Assembly (NCBI GenBank): GCA_951799425.1
Contig: OX637391.1
Coordinates: forward strand, 54,163,069-54,227,068
Direction: 5' to 3'
Source: Ilex aquifolium
Lineage: Eukaryota; Streptophyta; Magnoliopsida; Aquifoliales; Aquifoliaceae
Length of the DNA: 64,000 nucleotides
The notes below the pieces were generated by a model. That model was given only the letters and a program-made list of their open reading frames with translations, had not been told where the DNA came from and searched no databases. A program made the translations under genes and the position numbers. Position 1 is the stretch's first letter; every line of letters begins with the position of its first letter. Below, piece by piece: positions 5,858 to 26,515 of the stretch.

Positions 5858-7088
5858 ATAAATTTAATATTCACCATTGGATTTGAATTTGAATTTGATG
5901 AATTGAATGATAAATTTGTATTGATTTGATGAATTAAATATTAATCGAATATTAATTTCTTCTTAATGTGATAAATTGAATGTTAATTAGATAAAATTGA
6001 ATATTAATTAGATAAATTTAATGCTAATTAGATGAATGTGGATGTTAATTTGATGAATTGAATATTAATTCAATGAAATTGCGTGGTACTTTGGTGTTGA
6101 TTTGATGAATTGAATGTTTATTGGATGATTTTGTATGTTAATTTAAGGAATTAAAGGTTAATTGGATGAATGTTAATAGAATTTGAATATTAATTTGATA
6201 AATTTTAATGTTATTTGGATGAAATAAAAGTTAATTTGGTATTAATTTGATAAATTGAATTTTAATTTGATTGAAAATACCATCATTTGAGATGTTGTTA
6301 CAACGATTTGTGTGAATTTATCACTATTCGGGTAATTTTACTACTGTTTGGGGTAATGTTACCACTGTTAGAGACGATATTATAACTTTTAGGGTAATAT
6401 TAAGATTATTTTGAGTGATTTTATTAATATTTAGAGTGAATTTATCACTATTTAAGGTATGGATACCATAATTGACGTATATTTTTACTTTTAAGTTTGT
6501 AATATTAACTACATATATCGTAACTTTAACCAATAAAGTAGTAAATTTGGTCTACACTCTTGTAATTTTGTCAACTATTATTGTAACTTAATGTTAAACT
6601 ATAGTAAATGTGTCTTTAATTATTGAAATTTTACTAAAGTTGCTGTAAATTTGTCCACAGTGATTATAACTTAACTTATTTCTGTCGTAAATTACCCCCA
6701 CATACTTTGTAATGTGACATTTAAATATGGTAAATTTATTCAAAGTATTGGTAATTTTACCTTAATTATAGTACCGTTATCCATAAAATATTGTAAATAT
6801 AACCTTAATTGTTCTACCTCTAACCAACTTTGTCAGGTAGGACAAGTCATGTCTTGTACAATCTGACTGTACTATTGTAAGAATATATATATTTTTTAAT
6901 TAATATTTGTTTACGAGGTAATCGGTTATCACATTGAAAAATGTGAAAAATAAAAGTACTAACTTAATCAATGGTCCTTAGGGATTGGCAGACTCATCAA
7001 TTGTTCACATTGGTTTTTTTATATGATACCAAAAAATTTAATATCTGTACAGTATCCGGATCCGAATAAAGGAGGCCGTGCAATTTAC

Positions 7089-7243
7089 GAGCAATGTTAT
7101 AAGAATTTTATTTGAGGATTTAGTGATGTGGTTTCAATCTAATCATTGGATTAATTGTGAATTTCAATGTTAGATGAAACCCACAACTAATTCAATGGTT
7201 GTACATCATTAAGTCCCTAGATTAGGTTCAAATAACATTTTCC
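7089..7243. mobile_element. MITE of the GAGCAATG(C/T)TAT family
   Basis: The left end reads gagcaatgttataag; the right end, reverse-complemented, reads ggaaaatgttatttgaacc. These are the same kinds of ends as the MITE at 15054-15234. No clean 9-bp target duplication was found at this copy. It is internally non-coding and contains the 'tcattggattaa' / 'ttcaatggttg' inverted words seen in related copies. Confidence 0.55.
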
Positions 7244-8984
7244 TTGACAATATTCCTAACAACTTCCCCCGACTCCTCCTTTCACTCCAATATTGTGTGA
7301 AAGTGGGAAAATGTTATGTTACCGTCGGTTCTACCATACTAAAAATTATATTTTTTAAGGTTAAGTTATAATTTTTTTTGAAATGTAAGTTACAATTTTT
7401 AAGGGTATGATCAATCAAGTCGGGATCAATACCGAGAGTTTATGATCGATCATGAGTGTCTATAATTAATCATGACGTTCACTTAAACAATTATAACTTT
7501 TCATTTTAAAATTATAATTGTATCGTAAAAAATGATAATCAATAATACTAATACCAAAAAAAATAACATTTGGATAGTGTAGAATTTCCCGTAAAAGTGG
7601 GATTGTACATGACGTATGGACCAGCGAGGCTTTAATTGCTTGTGTACCTCCTCTTCCAACTGTTAGCTCTCTCAGTAATAATAATTGGTAGGTTGCCAAT
7701 TTATTCTCTCTTTATTCTTCTACTTCACTGTACTTTGGATCAGAGCTGTTATTTTAGGGGTATGTTTGGATGACCCAAACGGGGGATTAGATTGGTTTTA
7801 GAAAATCCTTTTAAATCTAATTCAATGAATTTTTATAAGAGATTCAATTATAAATCGAATCTAATTTCATATTTAATAGATAACATAAATATATGTGGAG
7901 TCTATAAATTCACGTCAAATCATATTTACTCAATTTATTAAAATATTTATTATTAGGTGAATAGAAGAATAAATTTTTTGATAAAATAATATTTTTGTTT
8001 TCAAATATAATATTTCACTTTTGACCTCCCGAATTTCATCAAATCCTCATACTTGACTTTTAATGTACTATTTATTGCGGGCCAGAACTGGGCCGATATA
8101 TGAATCTCGGGTTTAAATGTCCTAATCAAACATGAAGTTAAGTAGTCTATTGACTATTTTTCTTAAACTCTCCCTTCTAAACCCAATAAAGCCGTGCTCG
8201 ATTTCAACTCAAAAAATCGTAAATTCATGCTAACCCAAACTTTGGTATGAATCTAAGTCGACCGTTGAGCTTAGCTACGACTTGAGCCTAACTAGAAACA
8301 ATCGAGCCATAGTTGAGCATACCAAAAACCCAACTAAATTAACACCCAGATTTTTTTATGCAATCAATACCTGCTAGATGTATATATGCAAAAAATCAAA
8401 AGAAACCTACAAGTCTTTTGCAGGCCTGCATCGGCCCATCATCTTGATTGTTCTTTTAACTGTTGGGCCATGGGTCTGCCCCTGAACCCGGTTCAACACG
8501 TTTTCTTCCTCTTTGATAACTCCGGTCAAAATTCAAAGACCACCACCGTGTACTCATCCCTTCCCCCACGCCAACCAAAAAACACAACTCGATTGTAGTT
8601 TCCAAAGTCGCACTCCATGTGCTCGAAGAAATGTCAAGGTGGACGAGTTTCTGCGGAGTAGGAATTAAGTACCTATTGAACTTGTCCTATCAGTTTGTAG
8701 GAGGAGTTTGGGGTTCCTTTTCAGTTGAATATCAAGCGATAGCTTGGATGGAACAACATTTTCTATATAATTAGATAGAGCGATTTTTGAATACATACTC
8801 CTCACAAATCACAATACTGTCTTAGATTAATCTAAAATTCATCCGGTGGTCAAAAATAACACCCGAAATTTCAATTTTTTGCCAAAAATTCCTCCAAAAA
8901 TTCCTTTTTGAAAGGGATTGTCCATGGAAGATCAAACTATCTTTGGATTTTATAAAGATTAGCCTATTTGAAAACGTTAAAGTT
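7244..8984. other. Intergenic stretch, no supported gene
   Basis: AT-rich sequence. About 7765-8050 begins ggggtatgtttggatgaccc and resembles one arm of a plant foldback element, but no matching right arm was found. The short ORF at 8386-8598 has no recognisable domain. Confidence 0.4.
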
Positions 8985-9568
8985 TGATGATACCTAGAAA
9001 AAAGCTCTAAGTATGAGCTCAGACATTGAGGTCAGACAAGGAGGTCAGACACAGTAACCAAGGCTCCACAATCCAGACCTCAAGCTCTGCTCAAAGAAAA
9101 CAAACGGGAAATTGAAAGGGAAACAGCTGGCTGGTGAATAGCATCCTCAAAGCAATGAAAAGCTAGAATCAAGGCACAAAACTCTCAACTAACCAAGATT
9201 CTATCCCAAAAATCAAGGAAGATCCTACGGATGAAGGGCAAAGATCTCGGTAAAAATCTCTTAGAGATAGGAATTACACTATAAATATTGTACATCGCCT
9301 CAATCAAAGCCAGAGAACCCTACTGGCATCAAAGGCATCTGGTGAAATATTTTCTAGATGAATATAGATTCTAGGAGCAAGAGACTCCATTGAAGAGTGG
9401 ACTAGCCGAGCTCAATAGCCGGTGAACCACTATATTTCTATGTGTTACACACACCACATCTCAGATAACTAGAGCACTCACACACAATTTTATGAGCCTC
9501 GTAGCTCAGATCCATCCCATACCATTGAACCCAAACTCATTGCTCATTCGTGTAAAATTACGCCATCA
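8985..9568 (+). repeat. 5' LTR of the TR-GAG element
   Basis: 584 bp, TG...CA, preceded by the target duplication AAGTT. It differs from the 3' LTR at about three sites (for example ccaaggctccaca here versus ccagggctccgca). A TATA-like tataaatattg lies at 9282-9292. Near the 3' end of the LTR, tgagcctcgtagctca (9494-9509) forms a stem TGAGC/GCTCA like those of the internal minisatellite. Confidence 0.95.
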
Positions 9569-9592
9569 GTTTGGCGCCGTCTGTGGGAACGA
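9569..9592 (+). promoter_or_regulatory. Primer binding site of the TR-GAG element
   Basis: Immediately after the LTR, gtttggcgccgtctgtggga contains tggcgccgt, matching the first nine bases of the complement of plant tRNA-Asp 3' ends used by Athila/Tat-type Gypsy elements. A near-identical site lies beside the minus-strand Gypsy element at about 29722-29743. Confidence 0.7.
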
Positions 9593-9630
9593 CTGTTCCT
9601 GTTACAAATAAACTGATTCCTCAGTGACTG

Positions 9631-10872
9631 ATGGTAACAACTCGAAATATGAGCAGAAGTCAAACAAACCTACCACGAATGCAAGATCAGCAGGAAGCCA
9701 CCAACGGCAGACAACCAGGGAACATCCAGGAGACGAATTCCCCCATTAATAACAAGTTGGAGGCCCTTCGCCTCGTCAACCAACGATTACTAAAGGAAAA
9801 TGCAGAGCTATCAAAGCTCGTACAACGCCCACAGGAGGCACGACCGGCCCAAGAAGGCCAGAATAACCCCCCTTACAGGGAACGGCGACACTGGGACCCC
9901 CTCAGAGAGGTCGACGAAGGAGGATAAAGCAGCCAGACCAGGGGGCATGCTCCTTATGTGCCCCCTAGGAATGGCCATAACGACGAGATGCAAAGTCAGA
10001 ACGACGGGGGCGATAAGGATGATTCTTTCCCTTATCCGCCGGACAGGAAAGAGCAGCGCTGGGAGCAACGCTTCAAAGACATCCAACAAGAGCTCAGCCA
10101 CATGAAAGAGGCTATAAAGAGCAAGGCTCCGGTTACAATGGACGCCCTAGTACAACAGACTGAGTCCCCATTCACCACTGGAGTGCTGCACTTTCCTCTC
10201 CCACCAAAGTTCAAGATGCCTCAGATAGAGGTCTTTGACGGAACGAAAGATCCCGTAGATCATCTCAACACTTACAAGAACCAGATGGAACTGCATGGAT
10301 ACCAGGATCCTGTACGTTGCAGAGCTTTTGCCATCACGTTAAAAGGCTCTGCCCTGGCCTGGTTTCACAGGCTCCCACCAGCCTCGATCTCATCCTTTAG
10401 AGAGCTCTCCATAGCTTTTGTATCTCACTTTATAGGAGCTCGGATATACAGAAAGCCGAGCTACCACCTGTTGAATGTAAAACAGGGACCCAACGAGAAC
10501 CTACGGTCTTATGTCCAAAAGTTCAATTCAGAATCCCTGAAGGTAGATATTCCAGATGAGAAGTTTGCGATCACTGCTTTCATTGCTGGATTAGGAGTGC
10601 AATCGAAAGATTTGATATTTTCTATATCAAAGAACCCGCAAGAAAGCATGGCAGAGGTGCTGGCTAAAGCAGAAAAGTATATTAATGGCAAGGAAGCCCT
10701 TCTCTCAAAGGTAGGGAGCTCATCCTCACAGAAGGAAAAAGTGAAGGAAGAAAATAAGAGGGATCGAAGTCCTAGGAAAGAAAGAGGACGAGATAGGTCC
10801 CCAAGAAGAGACAGGGATCGCTCCCACAAGAGAAGGGAAGATGTCAGAGAACAAGACGAGCTCTTCAGTTGA
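9631..10872 (+). CDS. Gag polyprotein ORF with one in-frame TAA
   Basis: Starts at ATG 9631 and runs in one frame to TGA at 10870-10872, except for a single TAA at 9925-9927; the frame stays open on both sides. The N-terminal third is polar and Gln/Asn-rich. From roughly residue 190 onward lies a retrotransposon Gag domain with the typical words FDGTKDPVDHLNTYK, LKGSALAWFHRLP and FVSHFIGARIY. The C-terminus is an Arg/Ser/Asp-rich basic tail (RDRSPRR type) likely to bind RNA. I see no CCHC zinc knuckle, unlike the minus-strand Gypsy element's Gag. The TAA may be a point mutation or a suppressible stop; the sequence cannot decide. Gag would form virus-like particles packaging the element's RNA. 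Confidence 0.88.
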
Positions 10873-10881
10873 TGAACATCA

Positions 10882-11644
10882 GATGAGCTCTTCAGCTCAT
10901 AAACTCAAGATGAGCTCTTCAGCTCATAAACATCCGATAAGCTCTTCAGCTCATAAATTTAAGATGAGCTCTTCAGCTCATAAACTCAAGATGAGCTCTT
11001 CAGCTCATAAACATCCGATGAGCTCTTCAGCTCATAAATTCAAGATGAGCTCTTCAGCTCATAAACATCCGATGAACTCTTCAGCTCATAAATTCAAGAT
11101 GAGCTCTTCAGCTCATAAATTCAAGATGAACTCTTCAGTTCATAACTTGAGCAACGTAGCTCACTATGAACTATTCAGTTCATAACTTGAGCCAAACAGC
11201 TCACGATGAACTATTCAGTTCGTAACTTGAGCCAAGCAGCTCACGATGAACTCTTCAGTTCGTAACTTGAGCCACGCAGCTCACGATGAGCTCTTCAGTT
11301 CATAACTTGTGCCACGCAGCTCACGATGAACTATTCAGTTCATAACTTGAGCCAAGCAGCTCACGATGAACTCTTCAGTTCGTAACTTGAGCCACGCAGC
11401 TCACGATGAGCTCTTCAGTTCATAACTTGAGCCAAGAAGCTCACGATGAACTCTTCAGTTCATAACTTGAGCCAAGCAGCTCACGAGGAACTATTCAGTT
11501 CATAACTTGAGCCAAGCAGCTCACGATGAACTCTTCAGTTCATAACTTGAGCCAAGCAGCTCACGAGGAACTATTCAGTTCATAACTTGAGCCAAGCAGC
11601 TCACGCTGAACTCTTCAGCTCATAATAGGAGCCACGTAGCTCGC
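10882..11644 (+). repeat. Hairpin minisatellite: nine 27-bp units then thirteen 40-bp units
   Basis: The 27-bp units occupy 10882-11124, each starting gatgagctcttcagctcat. The 40-bp units occupy 11125-11644, each starting gatgaactcttcagttcat and ending near gagccaagcagctcac. Each 27-bp unit can fold as ATGAGCT-loop-AGCTCAT. Each 40-bp unit can fold as ATGAACT-loop-AGTTCAT plus a second stem TGAGC-loop-GCTCA. The array starts at the end of gag. In the frame starting 10841, the 27-bp units also encode a 9-residue repeat (MSSSAHK plus two variable residues), but this frame starts inside gag and may be incidental. The array sits where pol would be in an autonomous relative. Confidence 0.92.
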
Positions 11645-11959
11645 ACTACTACTATTCAGTTCATGATATGAACAACACAGCCCACGAAGAACTCCAATAG
11701 TTCAGAAAAGAGCCTAGGAGCTCGAAATGGGCTATTTAATTCCTAAAAAGAGCCCAGCAGCTCATAAAGTCAATAATTTTGCTTCAAGAAGCACTGAAGT
11801 ACTTCTCGAAGCAATGGGAACTCGGCAACCGTAGGAAAAGCAGCAGCTCTCTGCACCTCGAGCTCATGCAAATCGAGGTCGATGTGTGGAAGTCTATCTC
11901 AATTCAGCATCAACTCAGCCCCTGCCCAAGCTCACTTGGGCCAAGGGCTGGGGGGCAAC
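11645..11959 (+). other. TR-GAG 3' untranslated region with polypurine tract
   Basis: Degenerate continuation of the hairpin motif (gagccacgtagctcg, gttcatgatatgaac, gagcccagcagctc), then unique sequence ending in the G-rich tract at about 11943-11959 just before the 3' LTR. No coding sequence is recognised. Confidence 0.6.
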
Positions 11960-12543
11960 TGATGATACCTAGAAAAAAGCTCTAAGTATGAGCTCAGACA
12001 TTGAGGTCAGACAAGGAGGTCAGACACAGTAACCAGGGCTCCGCAATCCAGACCTCAAGCTCTGCTCAAAGAAAACAAACGGGAAATTGAAAGGGAAACA
12101 GCTGGCTGGTGAATAGCATCCTCAAAGCAATGGAAAGCTAGAATCAAGGCACAAAACTCTCAACTAACCAAGATTCTATCCCAAAAATCAAGGAAGATCC
12201 TACGGATGAAGGGCAAAGATCTCGGTAAAAATCTCTTAGAGATAGGAATTACACTATAAATATTGTACATCGCCTCAATCAAAGCCAGAGAACCCTACTG
12301 GCATCAAAGGCATCTGGTGAAATATTTTCTAGATGAATATAGATTCTAGGAGCAAGAGACTCCATTGAAGAGTGGACTAGCCGAGCTCAATAGCCGGTGA
12401 ACCACTATATTTCTATGTGTTACACACACCACATCTCAGATAACTAGAGCACTCACACACAATTTTATGAGCCTCGTAGCTCAGATCCATCCCATACCAT
12501 TGAACCCAAACTCATTGCTCATTCGTGTAAAATTACGCCATCA
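11960..12543 (+). repeat. 3' LTR of the TR-GAG element
   Basis: 584 bp, TG...CA, same length as the 5' LTR with about three substitutions, and followed by the target duplication AAGTT at 12544-12548. Confidence 0.95.
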
Positions 12544-12866
12544 AAGTTGAATATTGTTACCTTTGTAACAAGCATAAAATATCGAGGTAAAGCTCTAGAT
12601 CTTCTTATTAATTGTTTGCTTATGAATAAACTTTTCCCTCGCTTAGACGAGGTTATATGTTTAGACAAATTTAATCTTGACGATAAGAATGTTGTTCAAT
12701 TCATTTTTTAATAAGTTTTATATTATATCGGTTTTTCAGGCGCAGACAATTTCTACTAATTCCATATGATGGTGTGTGAACTCAAAATGTGAGTTTAATG
12801 CTTGGGCTGAGGAACTCAAGGCTTATGAATAGTAAATCATGAATGAGCAGTATTGGTATATGAAAT

Positions 12867-24739: not shown

Positions 24740-26515
24740 GTCTTGTGGAGATGTTGAAGGTCTGCAACACTCCCCTACCGGCGGTGTGAGCTCGAAAACG
24801 AAATCTGTCAGGGCTTATGCCTTGATGGCTTCCCTCGACTAGTATTGTACATCGAACTCGCCCAGCTCCACTGCCCACTTGAGGAGTCTTCTAGAAACAT
24901 TTACTTTCCCAGAATTCTCTTCAAAGGCTGATCCGTGACAACGACGATAGTATGACTCTGGAAGTAGTGCTAGAGACGCCTTGTTGTTAAGCTCAGGCCG
25001 AGCGCTAGCTTTTCTAGCCCTGAATATCTTACCTAAGCTCCTCGATATGCCCTACTTACGTAGTAGACGGGTCTCTGTACCCCTTTCATTATCTCTGATA
25101 AGGATGGAGCTCAATGCAGACGGGGAGGCGGAGAGGTATATGTATAAGATTTCTCCTAGCATGGCATGAGAAAGGAAAGGGGGTGCAACTAGATAAGGTT
25201 TTAATTTTTGGAAAGCCTCCTCTGCATCAGGTCCCCACTTAAAAGCCTTCCAAATGATTCTGAAGAAGGGTAAGCACTTGTCTGTAGATTTGGAGACAAA
25301 TCTATTGAGGGCTGCAATTCTCCCATTGAAGCGCTAGAGCTCCTTGATTGTGGTGGGCGACCTCATATCCAGGATGACTTTGATTTTATCTGGATTTGCC
25401 TAAATTCCCCTTTGGTTGACCATGAAACCCAAGAATTTTCCTGATCCGACACCAAAGGCGCACTTCTCAGGGTTCAGTTTCATGTGGTACGATCTGAGAA
25501 CATCAAATGTCTCCTATAGGTGGTCTACGTGGTCCGTTGTGGCGGGGCTCTTTACCAACATGTCGTCCACATACACCTCCATTGTCCTTCCAATTTGTGA
25601 CCGGAACATCTTGTTCACCAGTCATTGGTATGTTGCTCCTGCATTTTTTAGTCCAAAGGGTATGACCCTGTAGCAGTAAGTTCCTTTTGGAGTGATGAAA
25701 AATGTCTTCTCCTGATCTGGGGGATATATGCTGATCTGGTTATATCCAGAATATGCATCCAAGAAGGTGACCATCTTATGACCAGCAGTGGCGTCGATGA
25801 GGATGTCGATTCGCAGCAACAGGTAGCTGTCCTTAGGACATGTCTTATTGAGCTCACTGAAGTCGACGCAAAGGCGCCACTTTCCACCAGCCTTGGTCAC
25901 CATTACCACATTTTATAGCCAAACCGGATACGCTACTTCTCTAACTACCCCATTTTCTATTAGTTTTTCCACCTCCTTGTCCATTACTTGCTCTCTTTTA
26001 GTGGAGACACTCCTCAACTTTTGATGAACAGGCTTATAATAGGGATTTGACATTGAGGCGGTGGGTGGCGAACTCAGGTTTGATGCCTTGGAGGTCCTCA
26101 TGTGACCATGCAAAGACATCCATATTTCGCCTGAGAAAATCTATGAGTTGGCTGGGCTAGATCCTCAAGAAGATAGGAGTCAATGTACACCATCATCTCT
26201 GGAAACTCCTCGTCTAGGACCACTAGTGTGAGTTCTTCCACTGGCACTCATCTCTCCAGTGTGTCATCATCTCTGGGATCAAGCACCTCCACCTATAGGG
26301 CTTCTCGTGGCTTCCTGACCCTCATGGAGGAGACGTAGCATTCTCTTGCCGAAACCTGATATCCTCGAACCTCTCCAATTCTAGCTGGGGTTTGAAAACG
26401 GAGGATGAGATGGTAAGTGGAGGGTACCGCTCTTCGGGTGTTAAGTGCGGGTCGCCCTAGGATAACTTTGTAGGCCAATGGGCAATCTATCACCAAGAAG
26501 TTCACCATCACTGCT
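24740..26515 (-). pseudogene. Gypsy pol fragment: protease end, reverse transcriptase, truncated RNase H
   Basis: Reading on the minus strand from 26515: VNFLVIDCPLAYKVILGRP (end of the protease region). Then reverse transcriptase words KTCPKDSYLLLRIDILIDAT, YSGYNQISIYPPDQEKTFF and GLKNAGATYQ (25640-25900), the catalytic YVDDML box (about 25553-25590) and [11 protein letters not shown] (about 25430-25480). RNase H remnants VSRRLLKWAVELGEFDVQY and LTDFVFELTPP follow (24750-24910). Stops and frame changes break the reading, so no enzyme can be made. Integrase is not found downstream. Protease, RT and RNase H would be cut from one polyprotein in an intact element. Confidence 0.88.

Follow-up and report, generated by a model that had tools for sequence, protein, structure and literature searches.

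Why does a short retrotransposon that has no pol gene carry a tandem array of palindromic units, and why do the stems of these units differ by a base change that is matched on both arms? The question is raised by a locus in the 800-Mb genome of the holly Ilex aquifolium, which lies within a stretch of 64,000 nucleotides of contig OX637391.1 that is referred to here as the window. A preliminary description, made from the letters of the window, suggested that the array might be a structured RNA region used for packaging, dimerisation or stability, and gave as the alternative a minisatellite that had spread from a palindromic seed without selection. The second of these fits the comparisons reported below better than does a selected RNA structure. 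The array is probably, at odds that we put at roughly 0.7, a pol-adjacent minisatellite of Retand-type Ty3/gypsy elements that was inherited by a short, TR-GAG-like deletion derivative without pol. The placement with Retand is drawn from marks in the relatives of the element, namely a second RNase H-like domain and an antisense Transposase_28 gene, since the window element itself is without pol.

The element and its hairpin units

The array is part of an insertion of 3.56 kb with the order LTR, gag, hairpin array, 3' tail and LTR (Table 1), and this anatomy bears out the earlier description of a hairpin array inside an LTR retrotransposon that lacks pol. Gag, in which a Retrotrans_gag domain is found (E 2e-15), is the sole open reading frame of at least 150 amino acids listed in the element. 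With two LTRs, a target-site duplication and gag as its single retrotransposon domain, the insertion has the structure of a TR-GAG element, a non-autonomous kind that transposes by means of proteins from another element. Elsewhere in the window, at 25262-25921, there is a diverged pol remnant, which aligns with the pol of a relative, L051, over 664 columns at 66% identity (numbers of this form denote loci, L001 being the window copy).

Table 1. Features of the pol-less element, in window coordinates
Feature	Position	Strand	Remarks
Target-site duplication AAGTT, left	8980..8984	.	same as 12544-12548
5' LTR, 584 bp	8985..9568	+	99.5% identical to 3' LTR, 3 mismatches
LTR hairpin TGAGC-CTCGTA-GCTCA	9493..9508	+	-5.9 kcal/mol; arms TGAGC 9493-9497 and GCTCA 9504-9508
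Probable primer binding site TGGCGCCGTCTGTGGG	9572..9587	+	judged by position directly after the 5' LTR only
gag (PF03732)	9631..10872	+	one in-frame stop, 9925-9927, in the window copy; own stop codon within first hairpin unit
Ten 27-bp hairpin units	10856..11125	+	7-bp stem, 4-nt loop, 9-nt spacer; first unit overlaps gag end
Thirteen 40-bp units	11126..11645	+	two hairpins per unit: H1 7 bp with 4-nt loop, H2 5 bp with 6-nt loop; last unit diverged
Tail of degenerate hairpin modules	11646..11770	+	
Probable polypurine tract GGCTGGGGGGCAAC	11946..11959	+	identical letters precede the LTR in L040 and L049
3' LTR, 584 bp	11960..12543	+	partner of 5' LTR, 99.5% identical
Target-site duplication AAGTT, right	12544..12548	.	

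The array was previously counted as nine 27-bp and thirteen 40-bp units. The thirteen long units stand, whereas the short units number ten, the extra one lying at 10856-10882 where it overlaps the gag stop, and the starts of the units had been placed one base too early (they fall at 10883, 10910 and so on, not at 10882). The unit stems are present as described, and the TGAGC/GCTCA stem of the long units, which are made of hairpins of 21 and 19 nt, does recur in the LTR, one base off the 9494-9509 first given. In the long units of the window, stem pair 5/14 is A-T in 10 of 13, G-T in two (11286 and 11406, the G-U-compatible intermediates formerly placed at 11285 and 11405) and A-C in one (11606), and pair 2/17 is U-G in three (11206, 11246 and 11366). 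The two units reported to have an A-C mismatch hold when moved by one base to 11072 and 11606, but that list was incomplete: pairs are also broken at 10937 (A-C) and at 11486 and 11566 (G-A), and the unit at 11606 has a second mismatch.

Single units of the three types fold at -4.8 to -7.2 kcal/mol. The whole array folds far beyond shuffled sequence on both strands (z -10.5 on the plus strand and -8.8 on the minus strand, with 0 of 20 shuffles as good on each), a result to be expected of any tandem array of inverted repeats. When positions 8900-12600 were compared with the described RNA families of Rfam, only four weak matches were returned, none of them near the gathering score and the best with an E of 0.1.

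Variation in the stems

Hairpin modules from 51 elements were compared, comprising 391 of type A (27 bp), 897 of type B1 and 897 of type B2; the first 27-bp unit of each copy and all modules off the 27- or 40-bp spacing were excluded from the pairing tests. Each distinct variant was treated as one event, derived from its nearest commoner neighbour, and the count of events further excludes 10 variants that lie more than one step from any commoner variant. Counted in this way, the outcome of shared transitions was a G-U pair in 13 cases and a mismatch in 12, and that of shared transversions was a mismatch in 11. Among private changes there were 10 G-U pairs and 14 mismatches after transitions, and 20 mismatches after transversions. 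For A and B1 together, the 4 loop sites have 18 variants and the 14 stem sites have 52; on these numbers the stems are not clearly quieter than the loops. Copy number is somewhat higher for wobble variants than for those with a mismatch (p 0.06-0.08).

The 3' arms were also shuffled among the distinct variants, in tests that take no account of relatedness, so that a weak effect could hide in them. Within each type pairing was not above chance, the observed level being reached by 1585 of 2000 shuffles for A, 1899 for B1 and 1640 for B2. When A and B1 are pooled only 5 of 2000 shuffles reach the observed pairing, and when all three types are pooled over five inner pairs none does; without pair 5/14 these values become 1939 and 1975 of 2000. 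The pooled signal is therefore carried by a single double change (A and B2 have G-C where B1 has A-T), which marks two unit types and was spread by amplification. The paired stem change had been taken as evidence of selected pairing, and it reduces to this single pair that separates two unit types, without which pairing is no better than in shuffles. The further expectation that variants would keep pairing beyond chance fails as well, since both the shared transitions and the shuffles put breakage at about the level of chance. Covariation as proof of an RNA structure is rejected, one pair being all there is, and selection on paired bases is not supported by the variants compared.

The hairpin of the LTR was followed through the genome with the motif GAGC-CTnGTA-GCTC, as a flanked pattern that includes variants of the outer pair. 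There are 1567 matches, many of them in LTRs, and the outer pair is G-C in 1486 (obtained by subtraction), G-T in 28, A-C in 38 and A-T in 15 (these last two counted by hand). The A-T form occurs in at least three settings, with 12 of the 15 of one flanking type, and A-C occurs in both LTRs of three presumed elements of about 12 kb (C3:35974839, C6:23241106 and C10:33687121). As A-C is as common as G-T there is no preference for G-U, and covariation of the LTR hairpin was rejected as an RNA signature. In the window this hairpin is found at 9493-9508 and 12468-12483. In L047 it takes its compensated A-T form, which L051 has too, upstream of gag.

Five elements were tested for letters in common between LTR and array or tail, three others having yielded no LTR. 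In three of the five, L014, L020 and L029 of clade B, the tail has 13 nt in common with the hairpin of the element's own LTR, a length reached by only 1-2 of 300 shuffles. The same three tails share 15 nt with the LTR hairpin of L049 (0 of 300 shuffles). In the window element and L045, the LTR shares only 8-9 nt with array or tail (p 0.55-0.97). The LTR hairpin is thus a weak candidate for the parent of the array, the sharing being confined to clade-B tails.

Copies in the genome

The genome was searched both with the array, where the best 40 of 1320 candidates were scored, and with gag, where the best 40 of 2963 were scored. A total of 51 copies were read, one at each of L001-L048 and L050 and two at L049. 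Both unit types are present in 51 of 51, a figure that is biased because part of the copies were found through the array. The fairer figure comes from the 40 best gag matches (96-100% identical; 22 shared with the array matches and 18 fetched), all of which have the array. It is therefore not missing from most mobile copies, an absence that had been named at the outset as counting against a structured RNA. The motif formed by the end of gag and the start of the first unit has 54 exact matches genome-wide.

Unit number varies freely among the 51 copies, from 4 to 16 short units and from 8 to 53 long ones. The LTR pairs are 97.1-100% identical (7 of 22 pairs are identical and the others 97.1-99.8%), which indicates that the family moved recently, and over these 22 elements LTR age correlates neither with pairing (p 0.39) nor with unit number (p 0.75). 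A recent copy in L026 (560-3160), with LTRs 99.3% identical and GTAAT on both sides, has lost most of gag and kept the array, and from this copy gag seems not to be needed in cis. The leader between LTR and gag is about 75% like that of the window in L043-L048, the first copy in L049 and L050, where gag and LTR are 93-99% alike; in these copies the leader is a swapped module.

Gag could be framed in 39 of 50 copies, a set to which L026 does not belong, and in 16 of the 39 its frame stays open over at least 407 codons. Judged against the pol-bearing relatives L051 and L052, which are 79-80% identical in gag, its dN/dS of 0.06 (with dS >1) points to purifying selection, and gag seems to be in use although pol is gone. 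In each of the 51 copies gag ends within the first hairpin unit, reading ELFS-stop (31 copies), ELFSL-stop (13) or ELFSS-stop (7), and hence the array supplies its stop. A second frame, at 10839-11185 of the window, overlaps the end of gag and reads the 27-bp units as MSSSAHK repeats; it is open in 35 of 50 loci, those matched by script.

Origin of the array

The relatives of the element show features that it lacks. L051, with a gag 79% identical and a piece read that spans gag to RNase H, has RT_RNaseH followed by RVT_3/RNase_H, and L040 has an antisense Transposase_28 frame (6419-7588, E 1e-8) within 3 kb of its 3' LTR; no such frame is found in the short pol-less element.

The 22-nt core of the 27-bp unit, GATGAGCTCTTCAGCTCATAAA, has 6690 exact matches in the genome. 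The 100 matches listed form 24 clusters, all on contig C1, and of their 76 spacings 29 are of 54 bp, which may represent every second 27-bp unit, and 24 are of 55 bp. An RT motif lies 2.68-2.96 kb upstream on the same strand in 4 of the 24 clusters listed. Integrase would end about 2.7 kb beyond the RT motif, and the two distances together would place the array beside pol. The LTR motif is found 5.71-5.82 kb upstream in 6 of the 24, and the same six are enclosed by pairs of the motif spaced 11.0-12.9 kb apart; it is also found downstream in ten, at 6.66-7.15 kb in nine and at 5.20 kb in the other. The 40-bp unit has 1209 exact matches and follows the RT motif by 2683 bp in 2 of 11 C1 clusters listed, and the A-T core has 568, one of which, at C2:45272016, stands 2659 bp after the motif. 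Among the matches listed, no RT-motif match stands at that distance for 20 of the 24 clusters formed by the 27-bp core, nor for 9 of the 11 formed by the 40-bp unit; the 20-nt motif may have decayed there, or these clusters may belong to elements of other types. The list of RT motifs was compared up to C1:24.86 Mb, and for the one cluster beyond that point the comparison was made by eye.

The same hairpin core underlies arrays with spacings of 27, 40, 42-46 and 54/55 bp. The spacing of 42-46 bp was seen in an array of the A-T core at C2:42113462-42114277 (G000), which is unlike the 40-bp arrays.

Judging from these positions, the array is not special to the pol-less element, as the same core stands in arrays behind the RT motif elsewhere. 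No array is present in the pieces of L051 and L052 (gag to RNase H) or of L040, L049, L033 and L047 (3' ends), which stop short of the region behind pol, and the idea that pol-bearing relatives lack the array was overturned by the core matches downstream of the RT motif. Seeding of the array in the end of gag was dropped because of these same arrays, and it is more likely that the end of gag took its stop from the array. The order of pol and array is derived from a distance, and the positions of exact matches make the origin beside pol the most likely one. A deletion would then have joined the end of gag to the array. Unit number would shift by slippage or by template switching during reverse transcription, both of which palindromes favour, and a pol-bearing relative would supply RT and integrase. 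Some constraint is hinted at by a core that recurs at several periods and is present in every copy read, and there may be a function for which the array, being redundant, can afford single broken units.

Alternative explanations

Such a function could be that of an RNA whose hairpins, within the genomic RNA, jointly aid packaging, dimerisation or stability, with redundancy letting single units decay. We consider this unlikely. The array is in every copy read and has been retained in L026, which is young and has lost most of gag, yet unit number is free. The 27-bp cores are less diverse than their spacers (0.02-0.06 against 0.29 per site, the high spacer value being due in part to a few linked spacer types) and the same core recurs across arrays of several periods, but selection on pairing is absent within A, B1 and B2. 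The LTR hairpin stands at the inferred 5' leader position of the RNA; in this hairpin, however, the A-C form is as common as G-T and occupies both LTRs of three presumed elements; and the 13 nt that it shares with the tails of clade B have as their counterpart just 8-9 nt in the window element and L045.

A broader proposal, which we regard as improbable, is that the core is a selected, strand-symmetric signal of the Retand clade. Identical palindromes in their thousands would persist at a single place behind pol, with turnover confined to period and spacers, and would act between converging sense and antisense genes or as a redundant packaging and dimerisation array. The pol-less parasite would have retained and expanded them because they help its RNA to compete for the particles of its partner.

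It is very improbable that the array is a DNA or transcript signal read on two strands. In full-length relatives such a signal would have gag-pol on one side and, converging from the other, an antisense Transposase_28 gene, and would serve as a two-way transcript end, a boundary or a protein-binding array. Strong folding on both strands and a lack of preference for G-U over A-C would suit a DNA palindrome, and the cores are palindromic, but broken palindromes are frequent. The antisense frame of L040, less than 3 kb from the 3' LTR, and the LTR motifs downstream of ten clusters agree with such an arrangement, although the order of pol, array and antisense gene is pieced together from different elements. 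Finally, a coding repeat of MSSSAHK-type nonapeptides in the frame overlapping the end of gag is most improbable and is not supported: the frame does run open across the 27-bp units in 35 loci and meets a stop within the first 40-bp unit or shortly beyond it, but this is expected since 27 is divisible by 3 and 40 is not, frequent shared changes replace amino acids (M by I, S by N), and the other 15 of the 50 loci were unmatched by the script.

Comparison with known systems

The preferred reading, a Retand-type minisatellite inherited by a deletion derivative, has its closest known system in the Retand-type arrays, with which a 2006 study by Kejnovsky is reportedly associated. Retand elements are marked by a second RNase H, placed between RNase H and integrase, and by an antisense Transposase_28 gene ahead of the 3' LTR in the passages cited (PMC6317226, PMC11963269). 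Their arrays adjoin pol or the 3' LTR, with units of 8-100 bp in numbers that differ among copies; those behind pol are described as common, and their origin and function are stated there to be unknown (PMC11963269). The words "secondary structure" are absent from the main text of PMC11963269. As far as these passages go, the holly family is like Retand in the antisense Transposase_28 of its relatives, in the length of its units and in its variable unit number; the second RNase H-like domain of L051 and an array that probably stands beside pol would add to the likeness. It is unlike Retand in that the array here sits in a short element without pol and consists of hairpin units, with one core at several periods.

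A literature search for hairpins with compensatory changes, or for packaging, in connection with retrotransposon repeats found no match, by which absence in print is not proven. What is new here is a hairpin core that recurs across repeat periods and carriers, without proof of function. The clade provides a clean test, as a single genome combines one core, several periods, carriers with and without pol, and recent copies. A core that is just a seed for slippage would show how minisatellites arise from palindromes, and a selected one would be an overlooked cis signal.

Comparable systems are the repeats in the 3' UTR of Tat/Ogre elements, which are hypervariable (Macas 2009, as given in PMC7004042), and the minisatellites of soybean Gmr9 (PMC3305785). 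On the account cited, Ogre repeats feed long satellites, whereas the places listed here (the first 100 per search, all on C1) are dispersed short arrays. TR-GAG elements are described as having two LTRs, a single gag ORF, no pol and recent transposition (PMC8704663). The window element is like them, so described, in its two LTRs, its lone gag ORF and its recent movement, and unlike them in the hairpin array that it carries behind gag.
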